The notes beneath the pieces were generated by a model, which made no database searches, was not told the DNA's origin, and saw only the letters and a list, made by a program, of their open reading frames with translations. From a virus, in the IMG/VR virus record IMGVR_UViG_3300044996_000496, positions 23,579 to 87,578 of that record: a DNA stretch of 64,000 nt. One strand, 5' to 3'. This document shows positions 22,525-63,677 of the stretch, piece after piece (the first letter of the stretch is position 1; every line of letters starts with the position of its first letter). Made by a program: the position numbers and the translations under genes.

Positions 22525-22548
22525 TCAGTTCGAGGGAAGGAGAGGGTG

Positions 22549-24942
22549 ATGAATGGTCAAATTGAATTTAACAAGGATCTTATAACGCTTCTTTGGTATG
22601 GAGATTCTCCGTGTGTATCAACTGGATTTGGCATAGTCAGTCAGAGTGTATTGTTTAGATTATGGCAAACTGGTAAATATAGAATAGTTGCCGTTGGAAT
22701 TAATGATCGAGGCGAAGACCACCCATTAAAAAAGCTCCCAAATTTCCATGTTATGCCCTGTCCTTATCTTGACAGGGATCCATATGGTTATCAAGTGTTG
22801 CCGGAAGCGATTAAGCGATTTAAACCAGATGTCATTTTTGCTTTAAATGACATTTGGTTACTTGCTGGCGATAGTGGTAAGGGGAATCTAAATTGGTGGG
22901 AGAGTTTGTTGCGCCAGCATGCCCCAGGTGTGCCGTGGGCAATATACTTCCCAATTGATGGTCGTCCTCTTGCTAAGGAGTGGGGGCGCGTTATGCGCTC
23001 CTCGTGGTCGCCTGTTGTATACAGTAAATACGGATATGATGTTATTAAAGATGAAATACCTGATGTTAATCCTGAGTTGATTTATCATGGAGTTGATCTT
23101 GAGACGTTTAGGCCGATAGGTGATAAAGAAAAAATACTTTTTGTTAGAAGACATTTGGGTATTCCAGAAGATCATAAACTTATTGGTGTAGTTGGCAGAA
23201 ATCAGCCAAGAAAGAACATACCGCTTGCTCTTAGGATATTTAAGTATTTTAAGGATGGGTATAAAAAATGTAAAAATTGTGGTGGATATGCATCATTACA
23301 TGAAAGATCGTGTGAGTTGTGTGGTATGAGTGATTTTGATAAAGTATATGATGGATTTAACAAAGTTTCTATGTATTTGCATATGAACTTAAGAGATGGA
23401 TTTGGATTTAACATTCCTAAGGTAATAGCTGATGAGAAGGTAAGTGGAATATCTTTTAATCCCGATCATCATATTGCTCATGGCGTTCCGGCTGAGGTTT
23501 TGAATTTACTATATAATTCTTTTGATGTTATGTTTTTGCCAACTATGAGTGAAGGATTTTGTCTTCCAATTTTGGAGTCAATGGCCGCTGGTACACCAGT
23601 GATAGCAACAGCCGGAACTGCCCAAAAAGAATTACTTGTGGATGGTGGCGGAATTCCAATTATTCCACAAGATTATATTATTTTAACCGATGCTGCAAAT
23701 GTAAGACGACATATTATGCGTATACCGGACGCAGTAAATGCTCTTGAAAAGATTCTAACTGATCAAAAATATCATGATGAGTTGGCAATAAAAGGGCTTA
23801 GATACGCAGCCTCTCGCGGGTGGGATGTGTCGGCTCAGCAGTTTGATGAGTTAGTTACTAAAATGTTGAATAAGCGTATATCAGTTGTTGATTCTTTCAA
23901 TGAAACTAAAGAACCAAAAATTTTATTCTATAGACCAATAGGTTCTGCTGGAGATATATTAATTACAACCCCAGTAATACACGCTGTTCGTGAATTGTAT
24001 AAGGATTCAGATATAGTGTATGCTGTTCCTGAAAAATATATAGAGTTATTAGATGGGAACGATGATATAAATAAAGTTATTCCATGTGATTTTATGTGGG
24101 ATGGCAGTAGAAGAAAGGGCGCTGCACAGTCAACCAAAATAGCTAAAGTTGATTTATTTGGAGTCGAGGATAGAATAGAGTCTGCTTTAGCTCCAAATGT
24201 TATTTTTAGTAGACAAGAGATTTATTCTAATCATTGCAAGGTAAAGCCAGAGAGTATGAAGTCGGTGTACAATATTTCTGCACAAGAAAAAGAGTGGGCA
24301 GATGCTCTAATTCCGCAGAACGGTGAGTACAAAATAGGTATAAAGGTTGACACCGAAGAGCCGTATTTGGCTATTAGTGCTGGAGAATGGATAAAATTAA
24401 TTGAGTTTTTCGTAAAACGTAATGATGAGAAAATTTATATTTTCGTACAAGATAGAGCGCATTTCCCAGTTGATGAGTGGATGAGGCTTGTTCCAGATGG
24501 AGTTACTGTTTTTTGTTTTGATAAAGAAGAAAAACCATACAGAAAAATGATAGCAGCAATGAATAATATGAATATGATCGTTTCTTGTGATGGAAGTTTT
24601 ATTCACTTTGCTGGGATGCTTGGGAAACCGCTTGTTGCAATTTATGGACCAAATGATTGGCGACAAAAGTTAAAACATTATAAGAATGTGTTTCCGGTAT
24701 TTAACTCAATGTGTCAAATGATGCCTTGCTGGAGAAATCAGAATTCTCCATGTAGATTAACTGGTCAACAAGAGAGTGTGTGTTTAAGGGAAATGAAGGC
24801 CGGGATGATAGTATCCGCTATAATTAAGGCAAAAAAAGAATCGCTAATATCTGAAAATAAATCAGTAGCAAAAACACAAGAAGAGATTCAAAGAAAAACA
24901 ATATTAAGGGAAAAAAGAAAGCAAAGAAGGAACAGAAGATAA
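22549..24942 (+). CDS. Two-domain glycosyltransferase: GT4-type fused to GT9-type
   Basis: 797 residues. Residues about 10-440 are a GT-B glycosyltransferase of the GT4 type: 'DSPCVSTGFGIVSQSVLF' acceptor loop, 'ELIYHGVDLETFRP', 'IGVVGRNQPRKNIPLALRIF' and the donor motif 'FLPTMSEGFCLPILESMAAG'. A zinc-ribbon insert ('CKNCGGYASLHERSCELCG', about 240-258) interrupts it. Residues about 450-765 are a GT9/heptosyltransferase-like domain: 'FYRPIGSAGDILITTPVIHAV' and 'IVSCDGSFIHFAGMLGKPLV'. The tail is very basic. It follows the capsid gene and probably glycosylates a virion protein in two steps. A GGAAGGAGAGG site sets ATG 22549. Confidence 0.82.
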   Translation: MNGQIEFNKDLITLLWYGDSPCVSTGFGIVSQSVLFRLWQTGKYRIVAVGINDRGEDHPLKKLPNFHVMPCPYLDRDPYGYQVLPEAIKRFKPDVIFALNDIWLLAGDSGKGNLNWWESLLRQHAPGVPWAIYFPIDGRPLAKEWGRVMRSSWSPVVYSKYGYDVIKDEIPDVNPELIYHGVDLETFRPIGDKEKILFVRRHLGIPEDHKLIGVVGRNQPRKNIPLALRIFKYFKDGYKKCKNCGGYASLHERSCELCGMSDFDKVYDGFNKVSMYLHMNLRDGFGFNIPKVIADEKVSGISFNPDHHIAHGVPAEVLNLLYNSFDVMFLPTMSEGFCLPILESMAAGTPVIATAGTAQKELLVDGGGIPIIPQDYIILTDAANVRRHIMRIPDAVNALEKILTDQKYHDELAIKGLRYAASRGWDVSAQQFDELVTKMLNKRISVVDSFNETKEPKILFYRPIGSAGDILITTPVIHAVRELYKDSDIVYAVPEKYIELLDGNDDINKVIPCDFMWDGSRRKGAAQSTKIAKVDLFGVEDRIESALAPNVIFSRQEIYSNHCKVKPESMKSVYNISAQEKEWADALIPQNGEYKIGIKVDTEEPYLAISAGEWIKLIEFFVKRNDEKIYIFVQDRAHFPVDEWMRLVPDGVTVFCFDKEEKPYRKMIAAMNNMNMIVSCDGSFIHFAGMLGKPLVAIYGPNDWRQKLKHYKNVFPVFNSMCQMMPCWRNQNSPCRLTGQQESVCLREMKAGMIVSAIIKAKKESLISENKSVAKTQEEIQRKTILREKRKQRRNRR

Positions 24943-55915: not shown

Positions 55916-56259
55916 TGCCAGGAACCGATAGCACTAAACCAACGATAGAGGAATTAATTGACGCATTTGCTAAAGATTGGAAAAATAAAAAATATTCAAT
56001 TAAAAGTTTTAATCAAATCAAAATGATGGTACAAGATATAATAAAGATAGTGGAAACAGTGGATCCTGGTGATGGGCCAGTTAAAAAATCTTATGTAACA
56101 GAAATTGCGTTCGCCCTAATAACGATTATACCAATCAACATTAAGTTTCTTGGAGTGAAGATTCCTTCAATTTTTATTAAAATGGCATTAAAATCTATTA
56201 TTAGTAAGTTAATAGATGAAATAGTGGAACATTATAATGTAACTGGAATTTTTAAATAA
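55915..56259 (+). CDS. Hypothetical protein with hydrophobic C-terminal helices
   Basis: 114 residues: a charged N-terminal half and a hydrophobic region ('YVTEIAFALITIIPINIKFL', 'IFIKMALKSIISKLI') at about residues 62-100 that could associate with membrane. GGAGG precedes ATG 55915. It is the last plus-strand gene; its end overlaps the opposing gene by 8 bases. As the last gene of the late operon, a lysis role (holin-like) is thinkable but not shown. Confidence 0.5.
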   Translation: MPGTDSTKPTIEELIDAFAKDWKNKKYSIKSFNQIKMMVQDIIKIVETVDPGDGPVKKSYVTEIAFALITIIPINIKFLGVKIPSIFIKMALKSIISKLIDEIVEHYNVTGIFK

Positions 56260-57334
56260 TTTGTTCATTTTTATATTTTGGTAGTCCTTCTATATAGGAT
56301 GAGTGTGTTATTTTTGTAAATTTTGCCTTCTTTTGTAGGTCGGCTATTGAGCTTGCCCCGCTATAAGACAATCCGCGCTTGATTCCGGCGCATAGTTTAT
56401 ATATAATGTTTTCGGTTGGGCCAGAGTATTCAACTTCGGTTGAAATTCCTTCGTCTATTGCGTTTATGCCAATGCGGCTTTTTTGATTCCATCCAGATAC
56501 TTCAAATGTTGAGTTTCCTCTGTAAATGTGGCTGGTGCCTTCCTTATTCTTGGTCTCTGCTGCACTTGTTCCAGCCAGAAGCCTTCCTATCATGACAGCA
56601 TTAGCCCCAAGCCCAATGGCTTTAACAATATCCCCGGAAGACCTAATTCCACCGTCAGCAATGATTGGGAATAGCGATTTGGCTCTTATGTTTATTATTG
56701 ACTGAGCGAGCGGTAATCCATGTCCAGTTACTACTCTGGTAGAGCATACGCTTCCAGATCCAATCCCAACTTTAATACAGTCGGCTCCTGCACGCCAGAG
56801 ACTTTTGGCTCCGTCATGAGTAGCAACGTTTCCAGCGATAATAAAATACATGTTTGGATATTCTCGTTCATAGTATGATTTTATTTTCTTAATTGCATCT
56901 ATGCATTTTTGTGAGTGTGCGTGTGCTACATCGACGCATATTACCGCTTTTCTGTTGTGCTTTCTGAATGTATATTCCATTTTTATCGCTCTTTCTATTT
57001 CGTAATCCGTGATACCAACAGATATGCCGACTGACTCAAGCGGCTCAGTGGTGCTTAGTGATTTATTTAGTATATATATATTATCTTCAATTGACATAAA
57101 TCTATGCAATATTCCAAGTCCGCCAACTTTGGACATTGCTACTGCCATATTAAGTCCAGTTATGGTGTCCATATTGGATGATATTATTGGAATGCGTAGA
57201 AATAATTCATGTGAGTTGTTGTTGTTTTTTAGTGTTGTAGATATGTTTACATCTGATCTTGAGTTTAGTAAACTTTTTTGAGGTATAAGCAATAAATCGT
57301 CGAATGAAATTCCGCTATTGTAATTTATTTTCAT
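56252..57334 (-). CDS. IMP dehydrogenase / GMP reductase family enzyme
   Basis: 360 residues, TIM barrel without a CBS insert. It contains '[12 protein letters not shown]', '[15 protein letters not shown]', '[34 protein letters not shown]' in separate conserved blocks with the catalytic Cys in 'SVCSTR', '[18 protein letters not shown]' and '[13 protein letters not shown]' at the end. Lack of CBS and the length resemble GMP reductase, but the '[13 protein letters not shown]' loop and the '[12 protein letters not shown]' flap-like segment are shared by both, so direction (IMP to XMP, or GMP to IMP) cannot be fixed. It would steer the purine pool during infection. It is the last gene of the minus-strand metabolism operon. 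Confidence 0.85.
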
Positions 57335-57340
57335 TGTTTT

Positions 57341-58216
57341 TTACTCGTAGAGTTTTTTAAGTTCTTTAATTCTTTTTCTTATTTGTTTTCCCATTTGTTT
57401 ATCGCATTCCTCTTTTGATATTCCGATTTCTCTAATAATTTGTGACTTATAATATTCATATTCGTTTCTATGAGTATCTCGTATGAACTTAGTTGTCATA
57501 GTTTCTATTTTAGCAAACAACAGATCTTCGTTATCAGGGTGATCGTCATCCGCCTCTAACTTTGACTCTACTAAAGTTATATATTGTGGTTTAACAAATA
57601 CATTTGCAAATTCAAACATTAAGTTTTTGGCATTTTTTTCTCCAGATCTTGGTTTTCTTAATATTCTTGCCATTACCCATGTATTTTCGCCAGCAACGGA
57701 GTCAATTACTGGTGGTTCTGCAGTAATTAATATATTCTTAGAGTCGCTGTCTCTTAGGTTACTGGGCAGGTTCGTTAATTCAAATAACGTCTGAAACTTA
57801 AATGGTCCCTCGTATAATTTCGGAAATACCCCAAAATTCATGCTTTTAGCATATGTTTCTAGTCTTTCTCGTTTTACGAAATTATCGTCTTGATTTCTCA
57901 TGGCGAATACGTGATAAGTATCTCTGATTATTTCTCCATAGAATGTATATCTATACATTGGAATTAGTTCTTGAAATCTCCCATTTGCAAATGCGCGATT
58001 TACTAAATCATATTTAAATTTTGTATATTTTTTAGGCAATTCATCAAATGTATATTCTTTATTATTTACAAAAAATGATATCTCCCCTCGATTGAAATGC
58101 AGTGTAAATATTGATACTAAGTCAGTTTTTTCAGTTGCAATTACATTGTAACTTTTAATTGTATTTCTGCAATCTGATAAATCAAACACTTTTGGGAAAC
58201 GTGGTATTGCGTTCAT
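57341..58216 (-). CDS. RNA-ligase-like nucleotidyltransferase
   Basis: 291 residues. The N-terminal half fits covalent nucleotidyltransferases of the T4 RNA ligase group: 'PRFPKVFDLSD' lead-in, a motif I 'VIATEKTDLVSIF' with candidate nucleophile Lys near residue 30, 'YRYTFYGEII' (motif III-like 'GE'), 'YHVFAMRNQDDNF' (motif IIIa-like) and 'FGVFPKLYEGPF'. Motif IV is weak ('AGENTWVMARI'), and 'NVFVKPQYITL' may be motif V. A charged helical C terminus follows. It may seal broken RNA or DNA, or be a decayed member. GGAG precedes ATG 58216; it overlaps the primase gene by 4 bases. Confidence 0.5.
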   Translation of the reverse strand: MNAIPRFPKVFDLSDCRNTIKSYNVIATEKTDLVSIFTLHFNRGEISFFVNNKEYTFDELPKKYTKFKYDLVNRAFANGRFQELIPMYRYTFYGEIIRDTYHVFAMRNQDDNFVKRERLETYAKSMNFGVFPKLYEGPFKFQTLFELTNLPSNLRDSDSKNILITAEPPVIDSVAGENTWVMARILRKPRSGEKNAKNLMFEFANVFVKPQYITLVESKLEADDDHPDNEDLLFAKIETMTTKFIRDTHRNEYEYYKSQIIREIGISKEECDKQMGKQIRKRIKELKKLYE

Positions 58217-59361
58217 TTTGTAATCTCCTTTTCTTGCTCTTCCAGTAATTTTTTTGCTTTTGCGAATGTTATGTTTTTATAAAAAGCCAAAAATGAAATT
58301 GCATTTCCGTATTTCCCGCACCCAAAACAATAAAAAGTATTATTTGGATATATCACTAGTGATGGATTATTGTCATTATGTTGCGGGAATGGACAATAAA
58401 AAAATGCTTTTGATCCCTCCGACGGGTGTAGATCGAGATCGGATTTTGGTCTTGCGTACTTAATTGCAAGATCAAGTACGGTTATGCTGTTATCTGTTCT
58501 TACGTATTCTTTTTGTTGTGTTTGTGTTTTCTTTTGTTTCATTACATTTTTTCCGTACTCAGTATTCTTAAAAATGATTGGACATTTTACGCACTCTCTT
58601 AGTCTAGTTCTTCCGTGTGTACCTAACTTGTATAAGTCGTTGCAATCCATTCCATCAGGTAGTTCAACTAGGTATACATCTATAAATGATGATTGCTCTT
58701 CAGTAACTAATTCTCTTGCAAGCTTAAGGGCGGCTTTTTGCCCCGAGCTATTTAAGTCGTTGTCAAATATGATGTATATTTTTTTTAGATTTTTAAACCA
58801 ATTGCCAAATCTTTTGGGTGAGTACTGACACCCGAATAGTCCAACCGAAGGATAGCCCATTTGCACCATTGACAAACAGTCAAATGGCCCTTCGGTTATA
58901 TACGCCTCTTCCGTTTTGTCTAATATATCATGATTGTAGAAAATATTTATTTGACTTTTTGTATGTAAATGATGAATTAAAACCTTGTTCGATATTGCTC
59001 TTGACGTTATTGTTTTTACATTATTATTGAGCATCACTGGGAATATTATTCTTCTATTATGAAACAGGGGCATTGAGCCGCTATCTGCTTTATTAATAAT
59101 CAATCCGCATTCTATCAAATCTTTTTCTGTTATAAATTTTTTATCAATTATGTTTACTATTGGTTTTTCTGCTTCGTTTGATGATCCTATTCTAAATTCA
59201 TCCATTGTTTGGGCTGTTATGCCTCGTGCAAATAAATAATTTCTTGCTCTTATATCGTTTGATAAAATGTGCTCATAGTGTCTTGTGGCTAATTCTAATG
59301 CAGATATTTTACTTTGCGGTTTTTTGCTAATATTGTCAAGAATTGATATTGGATCTATCAT
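58213..59361 (-). CDS. DnaG-type primase with C-terminal zinc finger (permuted domain order)
   Basis: 382 residues. Residues 15-260 are a DnaG-like RNA polymerase core: 'YLFARGITAQTMDEFRIGSS', 'RIIFPVMLNN', then TOPRIM motifs 'AYITEGPFDCLSMVQMG' (Glu near 155) and 'IYIIFDNDLNSSGQKAALKL' (Asp-x-Asp near 200). Residues 323-375 are a complete CHC2 zinc finger: Cys323, His328, Cys345 and Cys348 in 'CPFPQH' and 'FYCFGCGKYGNAISFL', followed by the 'NITFAKAKKLLEE' helix. In all standard DnaG proteins this finger is at the N terminus. Here it follows the core after a flexible linker (about 270-310). All key residues look intact. Confidence 0.82.
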   Translation of the reverse strand: MIDPISILDNISKKPQSKISALELATRHYEHILSNDIRARNYLFARGITAQTMDEFRIGSSNEAEKPIVNIIDKKFITEKDLIECGLIINKADSGSMPLFHNRRIIFPVMLNNNVKTITSRAISNKVLIHHLHTKSQINIFYNHDILDKTEEAYITEGPFDCLSMVQMGYPSVGLFGCQYSPKRFGNWFKNLKKIYIIFDNDLNSSGQKAALKLARELVTEEQSSFIDVYLVELPDGMDCNDLYKLGTHGRTRLRECVKCPIIFKNTEYGKNVMKQKKTQTQQKEYVRTDNSITVLDLAIKYARPKSDLDLHPSEGSKAFFYCPFPQHNDNNPSLVIYPNNTFYCFGCGKYGNAISFLAFYKNITFAKAKKLLEEQEKEITK

Positions 59362-59984
59362 TTTTTCGCATCCAGATTTTCAAACGCAGTTTTTAACAAT
59401 TGCATAGTTGTGATAAGATCATCAATAGTTAGTTTGTTGTATATTATATTTCTTGATGAATGAGTAACTATAACTGTAATTTTTTGTTTTCCATGAGTTA
59501 CTGTAACTGGTTTATTTATTACATCTTGTAATGGTTTTGATAAGTCTAGATTTTTGCCTATTTCGTTGTAGCTTAGGAGCGTATACGCAACGCTTTTACC
59601 CAGCAATACCATTATTCGAGGAGCAACGATTGATAATTCTTGTTTTATATGTTTTTTGCATATTTCTAATGATCTATCTTTTTGATATAAACTTCTCCAC
59701 TCATAGTTTTTTGCGGGGCATCTTAATATTACGGTAAGCCCACATCGCTCAAGCATTTTCCCAGGCTCGTCAGTTACCCTTGACGCAGCAAGAAACAATC
59801 GGTTAAATACGGTTCCCTTGATTGGTATTCCGCATAATTCATCTGATTGTAGTATCTCATCTGAAACTATAATAGCTTTACAATTATCTGGATAATAACT
59901 TTGTACAAAAAATTTCCTATTCCACCACAATTGACAGTCTACACATGAAGCTACTCGTTTATTTATTTCTTTTAGGTTGAACAT
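59358..59984 (-). CDS. Degenerate family-4 uracil-DNA glycosylase-like Fe-S protein
   Basis: 208 residues from ATG 59984. The four cysteines that bind the [4Fe-4S] cluster in family 4 UDGs are present: 'ASCVDC' near the start and 'LRCPAKN' plus 'LEICKKHI' in the middle. 'CGIPIKGTVFNRLFLAASRV' matches 'G.PFvG.aG.lLd..L', 'APRIMVLLGKSVAYTLL' matches 'P.vi..LG..A...ll', and 'VTHSSRNI' stands for 'HPS'. The first catalytic motif 'GE.PG..E' is replaced by 'VSDEILQ', so the usual activity is doubtful. A TTG at 60011 would overlap the upstream gene more. It may act in uracil metabolism or as a UDG decoy. Confidence 0.65.
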   Translation of the reverse strand: MFNLKEINKRVASCVDCQLWWNRKFFVQSYYPDNCKAIIVSDEILQSDELCGIPIKGTVFNRLFLAASRVTDEPGKMLERCGLTVILRCPAKNYEWRSLYQKDRSLEICKKHIKQELSIVAPRIMVLLGKSVAYTLLSYNEIGKNLDLSKPLQDVINKPVTVTHGKQKITVIVTHSSRNIIYNKLTIDDLITTMQLLKTAFENLDAKK

Positions 59985-60396
59985 TTGTTCTTGTGATTGC
60001 GTAATATGCAACTGGTTTTAAAGAGTCTATATTTTTTACTATATTTTTTTGAGCTGGATCAATCACAATAATTTTATCTGCAACCGGAACAGCTATTACC
60101 CAGTGCCATATTCCTAAAGACGGCACAAAATTAACAGCAACAAGAGATAGTTTATTTATTTTGCTCCAGTCGCTTATTGTGACTGCTTTTGATAGTTTGA
60201 TATTAAAGTGAATAAGCGCTTTTCTTATAACTTTTGTTCTAGTATATCTTTTACTTGATTTTGGTAAATATTTTTTTATTATAGTCCATGATTTTTTATA
60301 TGTGGTATTTGCGATAATTGCAACGCAGGCAATACCGCAGTCATCTTGCCGTATTTGGTGTATGCGGCGTAGTGCTCCAGCTTTAAAGATGTTCAT
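59959..60396 (-). CDS. C39-like papain-fold cysteine peptidase
   Basis: 145 residues. 'IHQIRQDDCGIACVAIIAN' has the Gln oxyanion-hole residue and catalytic Cys of peptidase C39 ('Q.....DCG.AClaMi'). 'GIWHWVIAVPVADKIIVIDPA' holds the His and Asp of the triad. In bacteria C39 domains remove leader peptides at double-Gly sites and usually sit on ABC transporters; this is a stand-alone cytoplasmic form with no transporter. It could cleave a phage or host protein, or work as an isopeptidase-like enzyme. No good ribosome site is visible before ATG 60396. Confidence 0.7.
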   Translation of the reverse strand: MNIFKAGALRRIHQIRQDDCGIACVAIIANTTYKKSWTIIKKYLPKSSKRYTRTKVIRKALIHFNIKLSKAVTISDWSKINKLSLVAVNFVPSLGIWHWVIAVPVADKIIVIDPAQKNIVKNIDSLKPVAYYAITRTNVQPKRNK

Positions 60397-61029: not shown

Positions 61030-63156
61030 CTATGAGTTAGGTAGTGTACACCTGTCGCTCTCGCAATAGGAACTTGCGAGCGGATCTTCTTGTGCATCAA
61101 TAGTTTGCCAGTCTACTGGTTGTATGTGACTTATTTTTTGTTCATATTCCTCCTTACTTATTCCTTCATACGGTATTTGTGCATATGCCCCTTTTTCCGT
61201 ATGTGGCAACATGCTTACAGACTTTATTACCGGGGCAAATTGTGCTAACATATATGGTATTTGTGATATTTCGGATTTATCAAAATAGATTGTACAACTA
61301 ACTGAGTTGTCAGACCATTCTCTTTGAAGAGTGGCCAGCATGGAGAACTGCTCCCACGCCGACACACCGCTTGCTGCCCTAGCTTTCTTAAAATGTATTG
61401 GAAATTCAAATACATAAGATATTTCCGACTCAACCGGAACCATTCCATTTTTTGCGAATGATAAGTATTTATCAAATATTTTTCTATTATTGGACTTTGT
61501 TTGTGCGATCATTTCTAGCATTGGTTCATACGGATACTGTGCATTAATTAATTTTTTTGCTAATGAATTATTTTTGTTAATTATAATTCTTCTTATTGCA
61601 TATCTAAATGGCGGAAAATGAATTCCAGATGACGCTCCGACAAGTTGTGGCACGGTTCCGCCCGGTTTTACGGTTGTTAGTCTGATTGATGGAGGAATTC
61701 CTGCATCCGTATTGTAAATCTTGTTTTGTTCTTTAACGTGTTTGTACCCATCGCGCATCCATCTTATGCATTGTGCCATTCCCCACGTTTCAGTCCATTG
61801 TGCTATTCCAGATAGAGAAACTCCCATTCTATGATTTTTTGCTATTATTTTATTTGTTTGTTCGTCATGTGTCGGCAGCAAATAAACAGTTGAACAATAA
61901 AATGTAGCATAAGTCAATGCATCAAAAAATTCTTCTTTTGAGTTTGACTTCATGGGAAACACTTCGGATATGTTGCACACCTCTTTTGATTCTAGGGGGA
62001 TCTCTCCGCAAGGGTTTATGCCAGTTGCGGGGTCTGGGCACTCTTCCCACATTCTGGCATATTTTTTAAGATTTTGTATGTTTATTATTCCAGGTTCTCC
62101 GTTTTCAATTATGTAATCTGCTAGTTTTTGCATTTGTAAAAAGTCTTGTTTTGTCTCTAGTCTAACAGAGTTATTACTCATCCACGCAATTGGTTGTCTT
62201 TCGGGGAATATGTTGAAATTCTTGAGATTTAAAAACGTAAAATCATTGATATCTCCAAGACAAATTTCAGCACTTCGTCTTGAGCTTCCTGCTATTACAG
62301 CAATTCCTATTGAATTACATATATCGGCTACAAGTCTTGTCCATCCATAATAATGGCATGAATCGGATGTGGCAACAATATTAGAAAATCTTCCGTCACC
62401 AAATGTTTTTAAATATTTTTCACAGTATTCAATTATTTCTTTGTGCAATTGGCGAAGAGGTTCAGGGCCGGACGCCGTGCCTCCAAAGCTTTTTAGCTCT
62501 TCTCCTTGCGCTCTTATATTAGAGTAATCAAATTTTACTTTTGGTTTTCCAATTGTATAGCATTGAAGTAGTCTTCTTACGGAATCAACCCACCCCTCTC
62601 TGGAATCTTCTATAACAAATATTTCTATTTCATTCTCTTCTACTGCTTTGGGCCATTTGAGTTTTATTATCTCATTCGGACTATATTTTGTTCCGAATCC
62701 CACTCCAGTCCCATACATTAGGGATTCCATAAACCATGAGCAATCCTCTGCGAGATCCTCTACTTCTGTATATGCACAATTGTACAGCGCAAAACTTCCT
62801 CTTTCATAAATGAAGTTAGTCCCCATGGCAAACAATCCTCTGCCAGCGGGAAGCCACCTCATATTCAGCATTGATATCGCCATATGAAACGCAAAATCTT
62901 GCATTTGCTCTTCGTTCCACAGTAATTTATGTTTTTTGTACCACCATTTTCTTATGGTAAAAATTCCATTAATCACCCTTATTACAGTATCGTGCCAGCT
63001 TTCTCTGGATCCATCTTCTTTTTTTCGTGAGTATGTTCTTAGGTATACAACTTCTCCAAATCCAGATTCTGGAAATCCAAATTCATATTTTGTTAATCTT
63101 ATTTCTTTTTCTTTTTCGTCCCGTAACTTAAAACGTATATTTTGCTCTATGAACAT
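61030..63156 (-). CDS. nrdJ: Adenosylcobalamin-dependent ribonucleoside-triphosphate reductase (class II)
   Basis: 708 residues with the monomeric class II plan (Lactobacillus leichmannii RTPR type). 'LPAGRGLFAMG' and 'YNCAYTEVEDLAEDCSWFMESLMYGTGVGFG' blocks hold the first redox Cys. 'GINPCGEIPLESKEVCNISEVFP' carries the thiyl-forming Cys and neighbouring acidic residue. 'SIRLTTVKPGGTVPQLVGASSG' is the substrate loop, and the tail 'CESDRCTLPNS' has the C-x4-C pair that accepts electrons. It makes deoxynucleotides from ribonucleoside triphosphates with vitamin B12, without oxygen dependence. ATG 63156 is chosen over GTG 63174 because of GGGGG 8 bases upstream; it overlaps the RuvC-like gene by 10 bases. 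Confidence 0.93.
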   Translation of the reverse strand: MFIEQNIRFKLRDEKEKEIRLTKYEFGFPESGFGEVVYLRTYSRKKEDGSRESWHDTVIRVINGIFTIRKWWYKKHKLLWNEEQMQDFAFHMAISMLNMRWLPAGRGLFAMGTNFIYERGSFALYNCAYTEVEDLAEDCSWFMESLMYGTGVGFGTKYSPNEIIKLKWPKAVEENEIEIFVIEDSREGWVDSVRRLLQCYTIGKPKVKFDYSNIRAQGEELKSFGGTASGPEPLRQLHKEIIEYCEKYLKTFGDGRFSNIVATSDSCHYYGWTRLVADICNSIGIAVIAGSSRRSAEICLGDINDFTFLNLKNFNIFPERQPIAWMSNNSVRLETKQDFLQMQKLADYIIENGEPGIINIQNLKKYARMWEECPDPATGINPCGEIPLESKEVCNISEVFPMKSNSKEEFFDALTYATFYCSTVYLLPTHDEQTNKIIAKNHRMGVSLSGIAQWTETWGMAQCIRWMRDGYKHVKEQNKIYNTDAGIPPSIRLTTVKPGGTVPQLVGASSGIHFPPFRYAIRRIIINKNNSLAKKLINAQYPYEPMLEMIAQTKSNNRKIFDKYLSFAKNGMVPVESEISYVFEFPIHFKKARAASGVSAWEQFSMLATLQREWSDNSVSCTIYFDKSEISQIPYMLAQFAPVIKSVSMLPHTEKGAYAQIPYEGISKEEYEQKISHIQPVDWQTIDAQEDPLASSYCESDRCTLPNS

Positions 63157-63677
63157 TTTTTGCCCCCATTGCACTTGTCTTTTTTTAATCCAGAGTAGGC
63201 AACGGCTATTGCGTCATACTCGTCTGAGGTTAAGTTGTCCGATATTTGAAATTTAGTTATGATTACTTTTTTTACTTCGGTTTTTTGTGCTCTACCATTT
63301 CCTGTGATTATTTTCTTGACCGATTGAGGGGGGATGAATTTAGTCTCCAGCTTATGCTTGCCAGACGCTAGCCATAGAACCATTCCCTGTACCCATGGTA
63401 TGACCTTAGCCCCAGCACCCTGGTGAATAAAATAATCTTCTATTGTTATGGTCAGTTTATCGTTTTCATTAATTTCAATTTTAAGTAACTCAATAATTGA
63501 CTCTAGCCGTTCACGTATGTATTCGAGTCTTTCGCCTATTGTTTTATGCGTACTCTCTGGTGGATGTATTACTCCGTGATCAATCACTTCCTCTTTGCCA
63601 GAAGCGTGCTCCAGTTGAACAACGGCCCACCCAAAGTATCTAGATCCTGGGTCTATTCCTATGTTAATTTTTTTCAT
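63147..63677 (-). CDS. RuvC-like Holliday junction resolvase
   Basis: 176 residues, RNase H-like fold. 'NIGIDPGSRYFGWAVV' has the first catalytic Asp (residue 9), 'LTITIEDYFIHQGAGAKVIP' the Glu near residue 80 and the following Gly loop, and 'NLTSDEYDAIAVAYSGLKK' the last acidic pair near residue 150, all as in RuvC. It cuts branched DNA formed during phage recombination and prepares concatemers for packaging. The C terminus is Lys/Cys-rich. It lies upstream of the reductase gene in the same operon. Confidence 0.9.
   Translation of the reverse strand: MKKINIGIDPGSRYFGWAVVQLEHASGKEEVIDHGVIHPPESTHKTIGERLEYIRERLESIIELLKIEINENDKLTITIEDYFIHQGAGAKVIPWVQGMVLWLASGKHKLETKFIPPQSVKKIITGNGRAQKTEVKKVIITKFQISDNLTSDEYDAIAVAYSGLKKDKCNGGKKCS

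Follow-up and report, generated by a model that had tools for sequence, protein, structure and literature searches.

Bacterial DnaG primases (TIGR01391; PDB 2au3, 5guj, 1d0q) carry a CHC2 zinc finger at the front of the chain, followed by an RNA polymerase domain (RPD) built of DNAG_N and TOPRIM parts, and by a helicase-binding domain after TOPRIM. As cited in a review (PMC6163395), the finger acts in trans between DnaG subunits. In T4 gp61, whose finger is linked to the core by an 18-residue flexible loop, recognition of the start site and binding of the 5′ triphosphate fall to the finger, and each of the two parts docks separately on the helicase (PMC10359460). Standalone primase zinc ribbons encoded beside DnaG are reported for the group 2 jumbo phages in a 2021 survey (PMC7824862). 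Artificial constructs have served to study two points of mechanism, the cis or trans action of the finger and the effect of the linker on primer length.

The window studied here is a stretch of 64,000 nucleotides of viral DNA taken from an IMG/VR record (G000). Its primase (P0001) carries the modules of a TOPRIM-type primase in the reverse order: the catalytic core comes first, an intact CHC2 finger comes last, and this order is recurrent in viruses. In the portion of the open-access literature that was covered, no account was found of a TOPRIM primase whose CHC2 finger is C-terminal.

Domain order and integrity of the window's primase

The primase gene sits on the minus strand of the window (Table 1), a strand left unstated in the initial annotation; over the same interval, the frame on the plus strand is packed with stops. 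Residues 1–382 are encoded by one open frame with zero internal stops. The Pfam matches to DNAG_N, TOPRIM (the Toprim_2 match spanning residues 154–243) and Zn_ribbon_DnaG/CHC2 were every one over its gathering cut-off, and their E-values, from 4.5e-10 to 2.8e-12, exclude chance matches. Three traits of TOPRIM-type (DnaG superfamily) primases are present: a DNAG_N plus TOPRIM fold, the catalytic acids and a four-ligand CHC2 finger.

Table 1. Coordinates of the primase, its parts and neighbouring genes in the window
Feature	Coordinates	Strand	Size or evidence
TOPRIM-type DNA primase, core first and CHC2 zinc finger last	58213..59361	-	382 aa
DNAG_N, N-terminal lobe of the RNA polymerase domain, residues 33–131	58969..59265	-	Pfam PF08275, E 2.8e-12
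TOPRIM, residues ~153–244, Glu157, Asp200, Asp202, Asp239	58630..58905	-	Pfam PF13155, E 4.5e-10, and PF13362
Linker, residues 266–291, predicted disordered, Lys/Gln/Thr-rich	58489..58566	-	pLDDT <50
C-terminal zinc-binding domain, residues 295–381	58219..58479	-	Pfam PF01807 (317–375, E 4.6e-12); 1d0q_A match
Next gene downstream	57341..58216	-	291 aa; ATG overlaps primase stop by 4 bases
Upstream gene, weakly family 4 uracil-DNA glycosylase-like	59358..60011	-	NCBIfam NF040953, E 2.8e-10, well under model cut-off
Class II (B12-dependent) ribonucleotide reductase, same gene run	61030..63174	-	phrog_367, E 7.4e-117; PF21995
RuvC-like Holliday junction resolvase, near contig end	63147..63677	-	Pfam PF02075, E 1.2e-17

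Compared with bacterial DnaG, which shares the DNAG_N and TOPRIM parts of the RPD and the CHC2 domain, the finger is last (317–375), behind a core at 33–244. The NCBIfam dnaG model (TIGR01391) aligned to P0001 from residue 13 onward, starting at model position 107, showing that P0001 begins where an ordinary DnaG has just completed its finger. The score against this dnaG equivalog model, 141.6 bits, was below the cut-off of 283.6. P0001 also differs from DnaG in having no C-terminal helicase-binding domain, the RPD being trailed by the linker and the finger only. No helicase domain was matched in the chain with Pfam, whereas T7 gp4-type primase-helicases carry one of DnaB type. T4 gp61 is of similar size (342 versus 382 residues), consists of a finger and an RPD with a flexible joint, and has no DnaG-type helicase-binding domain. 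Relative to gp61, however, the domain order is reversed, and a linker of about 26 residues runs from the RPD to the finger that follows it. Primases of the gp61 type work with a separate hexameric helicase; none of DnaB type is encoded in the truncated record.

Residues were compared in an alignment of six primases, P0001 and five natural ones whose pieces were arranged by hand in the core-first order. R104, R121, K135, E157, G158, D161, D200, D202, D239, C323, H328, C345 and C348 were invariant. The initial annotation, which had read a core followed by an intact finger from this gene, is borne out by the Pfam order and by these conserved residues; the TOPRIM glutamate (Glu157), the Asp200-x-Asp202 pair and the zinc ligands Cys323, His328, Cys345 and Cys348 had all been correctly assigned. 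Some departures from the usual pattern were observed. The first ligand pair is spaced C-x4-H (CPFPQH), two residues longer than the usual C-x2-H (CPFH), the spacing of DnaG; the initial annotation had overlooked this. Motif III is partly divergent and is devoid of a KYLNSPET-like string. The C-x4-H spacing and the divergent motif III could mean a reduced or altered activity of P0001.

A structure was predicted with AlphaFold2, using an input alignment composed of natural core pieces and natural finger pieces. The model that the initial annotation had proposed as a check shows a confident core, a disordered linker (266–291) and a confident finger. Block-mean pLDDT values were mostly 80–94 in the N-terminal lobe, mostly 66–87 in TOPRIM and 84–91 in the finger centre. 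Some core rows of the alignment were misaligned past the DxD motif, which probably lowers the confidence of the late TOPRIM part. With Foldseek, the core matched the DnaG RPDs 5guj, 5vaz, 4edg and 1dd9 with E-values of about 1e-12, and the finger alone matched 1d0q, the zinc-binding domain of the B. stearothermophilus primase, with an rmsd of 2.0 over 85 columns. The top BFVD match was A0A218MKR7 (346 columns, rmsd 12.1). Another Foldseek lead, from Microbacterium phage Zeta1847 (405 columns), was discarded after an HMM check showed a core with no finger behind it.

Two ways in which the apparent order could mislead had been raised with the initial annotation. The first, a mis-read N-terminal finger, is contradicted by the Pfam placement of the finger, by its structural match to 1d0q and by the core-first relatives described below. 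The second, an assembly artefact or a frameshift that put two genes together in the wrong order, might be suspected because the contig is metagenomic, but it is hardly credible. The frame stays open through the joint, GC content is equal on either side of the linker (33.2% in the core part and 34.1% in the finger part), the start and the stop of the gene each overlap the adjoining gene by 4 bases, and the same order is found on the independent contigs L015, L228 and L229. Within G000, taken whole as far as it is sequenced, the only CHC2 match is that of P0001 itself; therefore, the sequenced record holds no leftover N-terminal finger gene.

Core-first primases and separate fingers in other viruses

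Using an alignment of natural DnaG pieces arranged in the core-first order, a scan of IMG/VR gave L015 as the best match among those listed, with a fused core-first ORF. A second scan with P0001 and L015 added two fused core-first ORFs, in L228 (361 aa, stop to stop) and L229 (305 aa), as well as L232:1953-2776, where a TOPRIM core followed by a CHC2 finger lies in two overlapping frames, which may represent a split gene or result from a frame break. The order from TOPRIM to CHC2 was confirmed by Pfam in L015, L228 and L229. These three fused ORFs stand on unrelated viral contigs. Exactly one CHC2 match per record was found for P0001, L015, L228, L229 and L232. The usual C-x2-H and C-x2-C spacings are retained in L228, L229 and L232. 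The L015 finger has lost its His ligand (CIFK) and may therefore not hold zinc as usual. All four relatives have a shorter N-terminal lobe than P0001. The gene next to the core-first primase encodes a D5-type helicase in L229; in L015 and L232 it is unassigned and carries a P-loop-like GGGKT/GGKS motif.

Among the matches listed, at least 152 fused ORFs were finger-first, in 79 genome contigs, 63 viral contigs and 10 phage or plasmid records, versus at least three core-first ones besides that of the window, the latter all viral; because the loci were chosen by similarity to the queries, these counts do not measure how frequent each order is. No close relative of P0001 was detected when viral contigs were scanned with single sequences of the primase, the ribonucleotide reductase and the terminase. 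The relatives examined from tblastn searches of phages and plasmids were all either partial or of the ordinary order, and no PHROG matching the finger places it behind a core in the stretches listed. Pseudomonas phage Jeremy, considered as a TOPRIM plus finger case, was rejected, as the HMM puts the finger at the front of the primase/helicase gene.

The core-first order was also observed with two separate proteins. In at least six viral contigs (L018, L047, L097, L099, L125, L126), the CHC2 finger has a small ORF of its own, located downstream of a TOPRIM-DnaB ORF, and each of these records has one CHC2 match only. Their cores form a single clade (100/99). These split primases resemble P0001 in that the coding sequence of the finger lies downstream of that of the core, and L018 and L047 share its C-x4-H spacing. 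In contrast to P0001, which is one chain without a helicase domain, they comprise two proteins, and the one with the core also carries a DnaB-type helicase. In another set (L098, L127–L132), the separate finger ORF precedes the core. The CHC2 finger of phages is thus modular, occurring N-terminally, C-terminally, separately upstream or separately downstream. As a consequence, annotation that assumes a finger-first order may mislabel core-first primases. The natural core-first fusions can be paired with the two-gene versions of other viruses to test the importance of the attachment point.

These two-gene layouts bear on another reading of P0001, that its finger functions, in addition or exclusively, as a subunit apart from the core, the two being freed by an internal start (e.g. 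Met274) or by cleavage in the Lys/Gln-rich linker. The six contigs with core and finger as adjacent genes, core first, are consistent with this reading, as are the two overlapping frames of L232 and the position of Met274 between the domains, in a disordered stretch. We nevertheless judge it rather improbable: P0001 is one unbroken frame, no clear ribosome-binding site precedes Met274, and L015, L228 and L229 are likewise single ORFs.

C-terminal CHC2 fingers were also seen without TOPRIM, in L016:3449-4309, L118:3737-4264, L119:461-1123, L120:3575-4186, L124:3551-4147 and L134:3512-4177. A D5-type helicase gene adjoins the TOPRIM-less finger protein in L016, L119, L120 and L124. Such proteins may provide D5-type replication systems with a finger subunit. 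In the primase of Bacillus phage Slash (L013:21141-22169), an N-terminal finger region is recognisable by eye and its cysteine ligands are lost, which suggests that this finger may be zinc-free.

Origin of the C-terminal finger

In a careful tree of 55 cores, those of L015, L228, L229 and L232 formed a clade (97/89) next to L237, a TOPRIM-AAA protein whose finger is on a separate ORF. The P0001 core occupied a long branch, apart from this clade and from cellular-type DnaG cores. Forcing P0001 together with L015, L228, L229 and L232 gave a tree worse by 18 log units, with an AU p value of 0.147. A single origin is not rejected at this value, and both one and two origins of the fused core-first primases are possible.

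In the careful finger tree (85 columns), all N-terminal fingers except one clustered (82/73) and were separated from those that are free, C-terminal or downstream. The P0001 finger grouped weakly (80/70) with the downstream fingers of the split phage primases. A quicker finger tree placed it instead beside the C-terminal-finger proteins; because the two trees disagree, its exact sister group is unsure. The separation of the P0001 finger from the N-terminal DnaG fingers favours the fusion of an independent finger over a permuted DnaG gene. The initial annotation had described the finger as moved to the C terminus, and this part of it is probably wrong, since the P0001 finger clusters with free downstream fingers and not with those of DnaG.

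A true circular permutation, or a local rearrangement that shifted the DnaG gene's own finger to the end, would be an alternative solely for how the protein arose, which could still work in an identical way. The P0001 core does retain a fairly full DnaG-like N-terminal lobe, as expected on this account. However, the N-terminal fingers stand apart from the P0001 finger in the careful tree and the P0001 core falls outside the cellular-type DnaG cores, both with modest support, and we regard such a rearrangement as unlikely. With the same modest support, we infer that P0001 rather represents an independently evolving finger gene fused behind a core. A core that had lost its own finger would have gained, behind it, a phage finger gene of the kind that is still a separate downstream ORF elsewhere.

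A broader proposal, which is doubtful, is that TOPRIM followed by CHC2 is a distinct primase architecture confined to viruses, which would have arisen by at least two fusions of a free finger gene behind a finger-less core. The reversed tether would then alter the presentation of the finger, with effects on the choice of start site, on the length of primers or on docking, for which a D5/AAA helicase would take the place of DnaB.

Proposed function and gene neighbourhood

Overall, P0001 is in our view quite probably the phage's primase of the DnaG/gp61 class, made of a catalytic core, a flexible linker and a C-terminal CHC2 finger in its ordinary role, with the finger gene fused behind the core. 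The protein would most likely be active in priming, its tethered finger acting in cis or in trans. The finger would do the usual job of a primase finger, reading the template start site and holding the 5′ end of the nascent primer. It would reach an active site, either on the same chain or on a neighbouring subunit, over the disordered linker of about 26 residues. The attachment point may matter little, because the finger of known primases is already mobile and flexibly tethered; with a finger as mobile as that of T4 gp61, it is plausible that such a tether could bring it into place even when anchored at the opposite end of the core.

No DnaB-type helicase was found in G000, a record that is incomplete and ends 4.6 kb upstream of the primase gene. 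Bacillus phage Slash has one of the known terminases nearest to that of G000, and its primase and a DnaB-like helicase lie in a minus-strand run after the tail genes. This layout suggests that the partner helicase of P0001 may lie past the contig end. A second primase could also lie there, and P0001 would in that case be an accessory or inactive TOPRIM-finger protein, the true replicative primase being encoded beyond the contig. The incompleteness of G000 and its want of a DnaB-type helicase, together with the divergent motif III and the unusual finger spacing, leave room for this explanation. It is nonetheless quite improbable, as P0001 retains the catalytic acids and the basic residues R104, R121 and K135, and its gene stands within a run of replication and nucleotide genes. 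Moreover, a single primase is enough in the T4 and T7 systems.

The 291-residue neighbour downstream of the primase gave no convincing family match in Pfam, PHROG or NCBIfam, and its single-sequence model (pLDDT 52) was too poor for use. The gene that follows this neighbour, two downstream from the primase and on the minus strand, encodes an enzyme of the IMP dehydrogenase/GMP reductase family (56252-57334; PF00478, E 1.1e-87). A protein resembling C39 peptidases of the bacteriocin-processing type (59959-60396, minus strand; E 9.6e-08) is encoded inside the replication gene run. The uracil-DNA glycosylase-like gene lies near the class II ribonucleotide reductase gene. As a sign of modified-base DNA, the adenylosuccinate-synthase family (PurZ-like) was sought in G000, and no member was found.

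Outside this run, the presumed tail region (34109-54896, plus strand) contains three very long genes of 1930, 2014 and 2813 aa. A glycosyltransferase of 798 aa is encoded near the structural region (22546-24942), and in L003:366-5302 a run of glycosyltransferase-, sugar-epimerase- and acetyltransferase-like genes also lies near the structural region.
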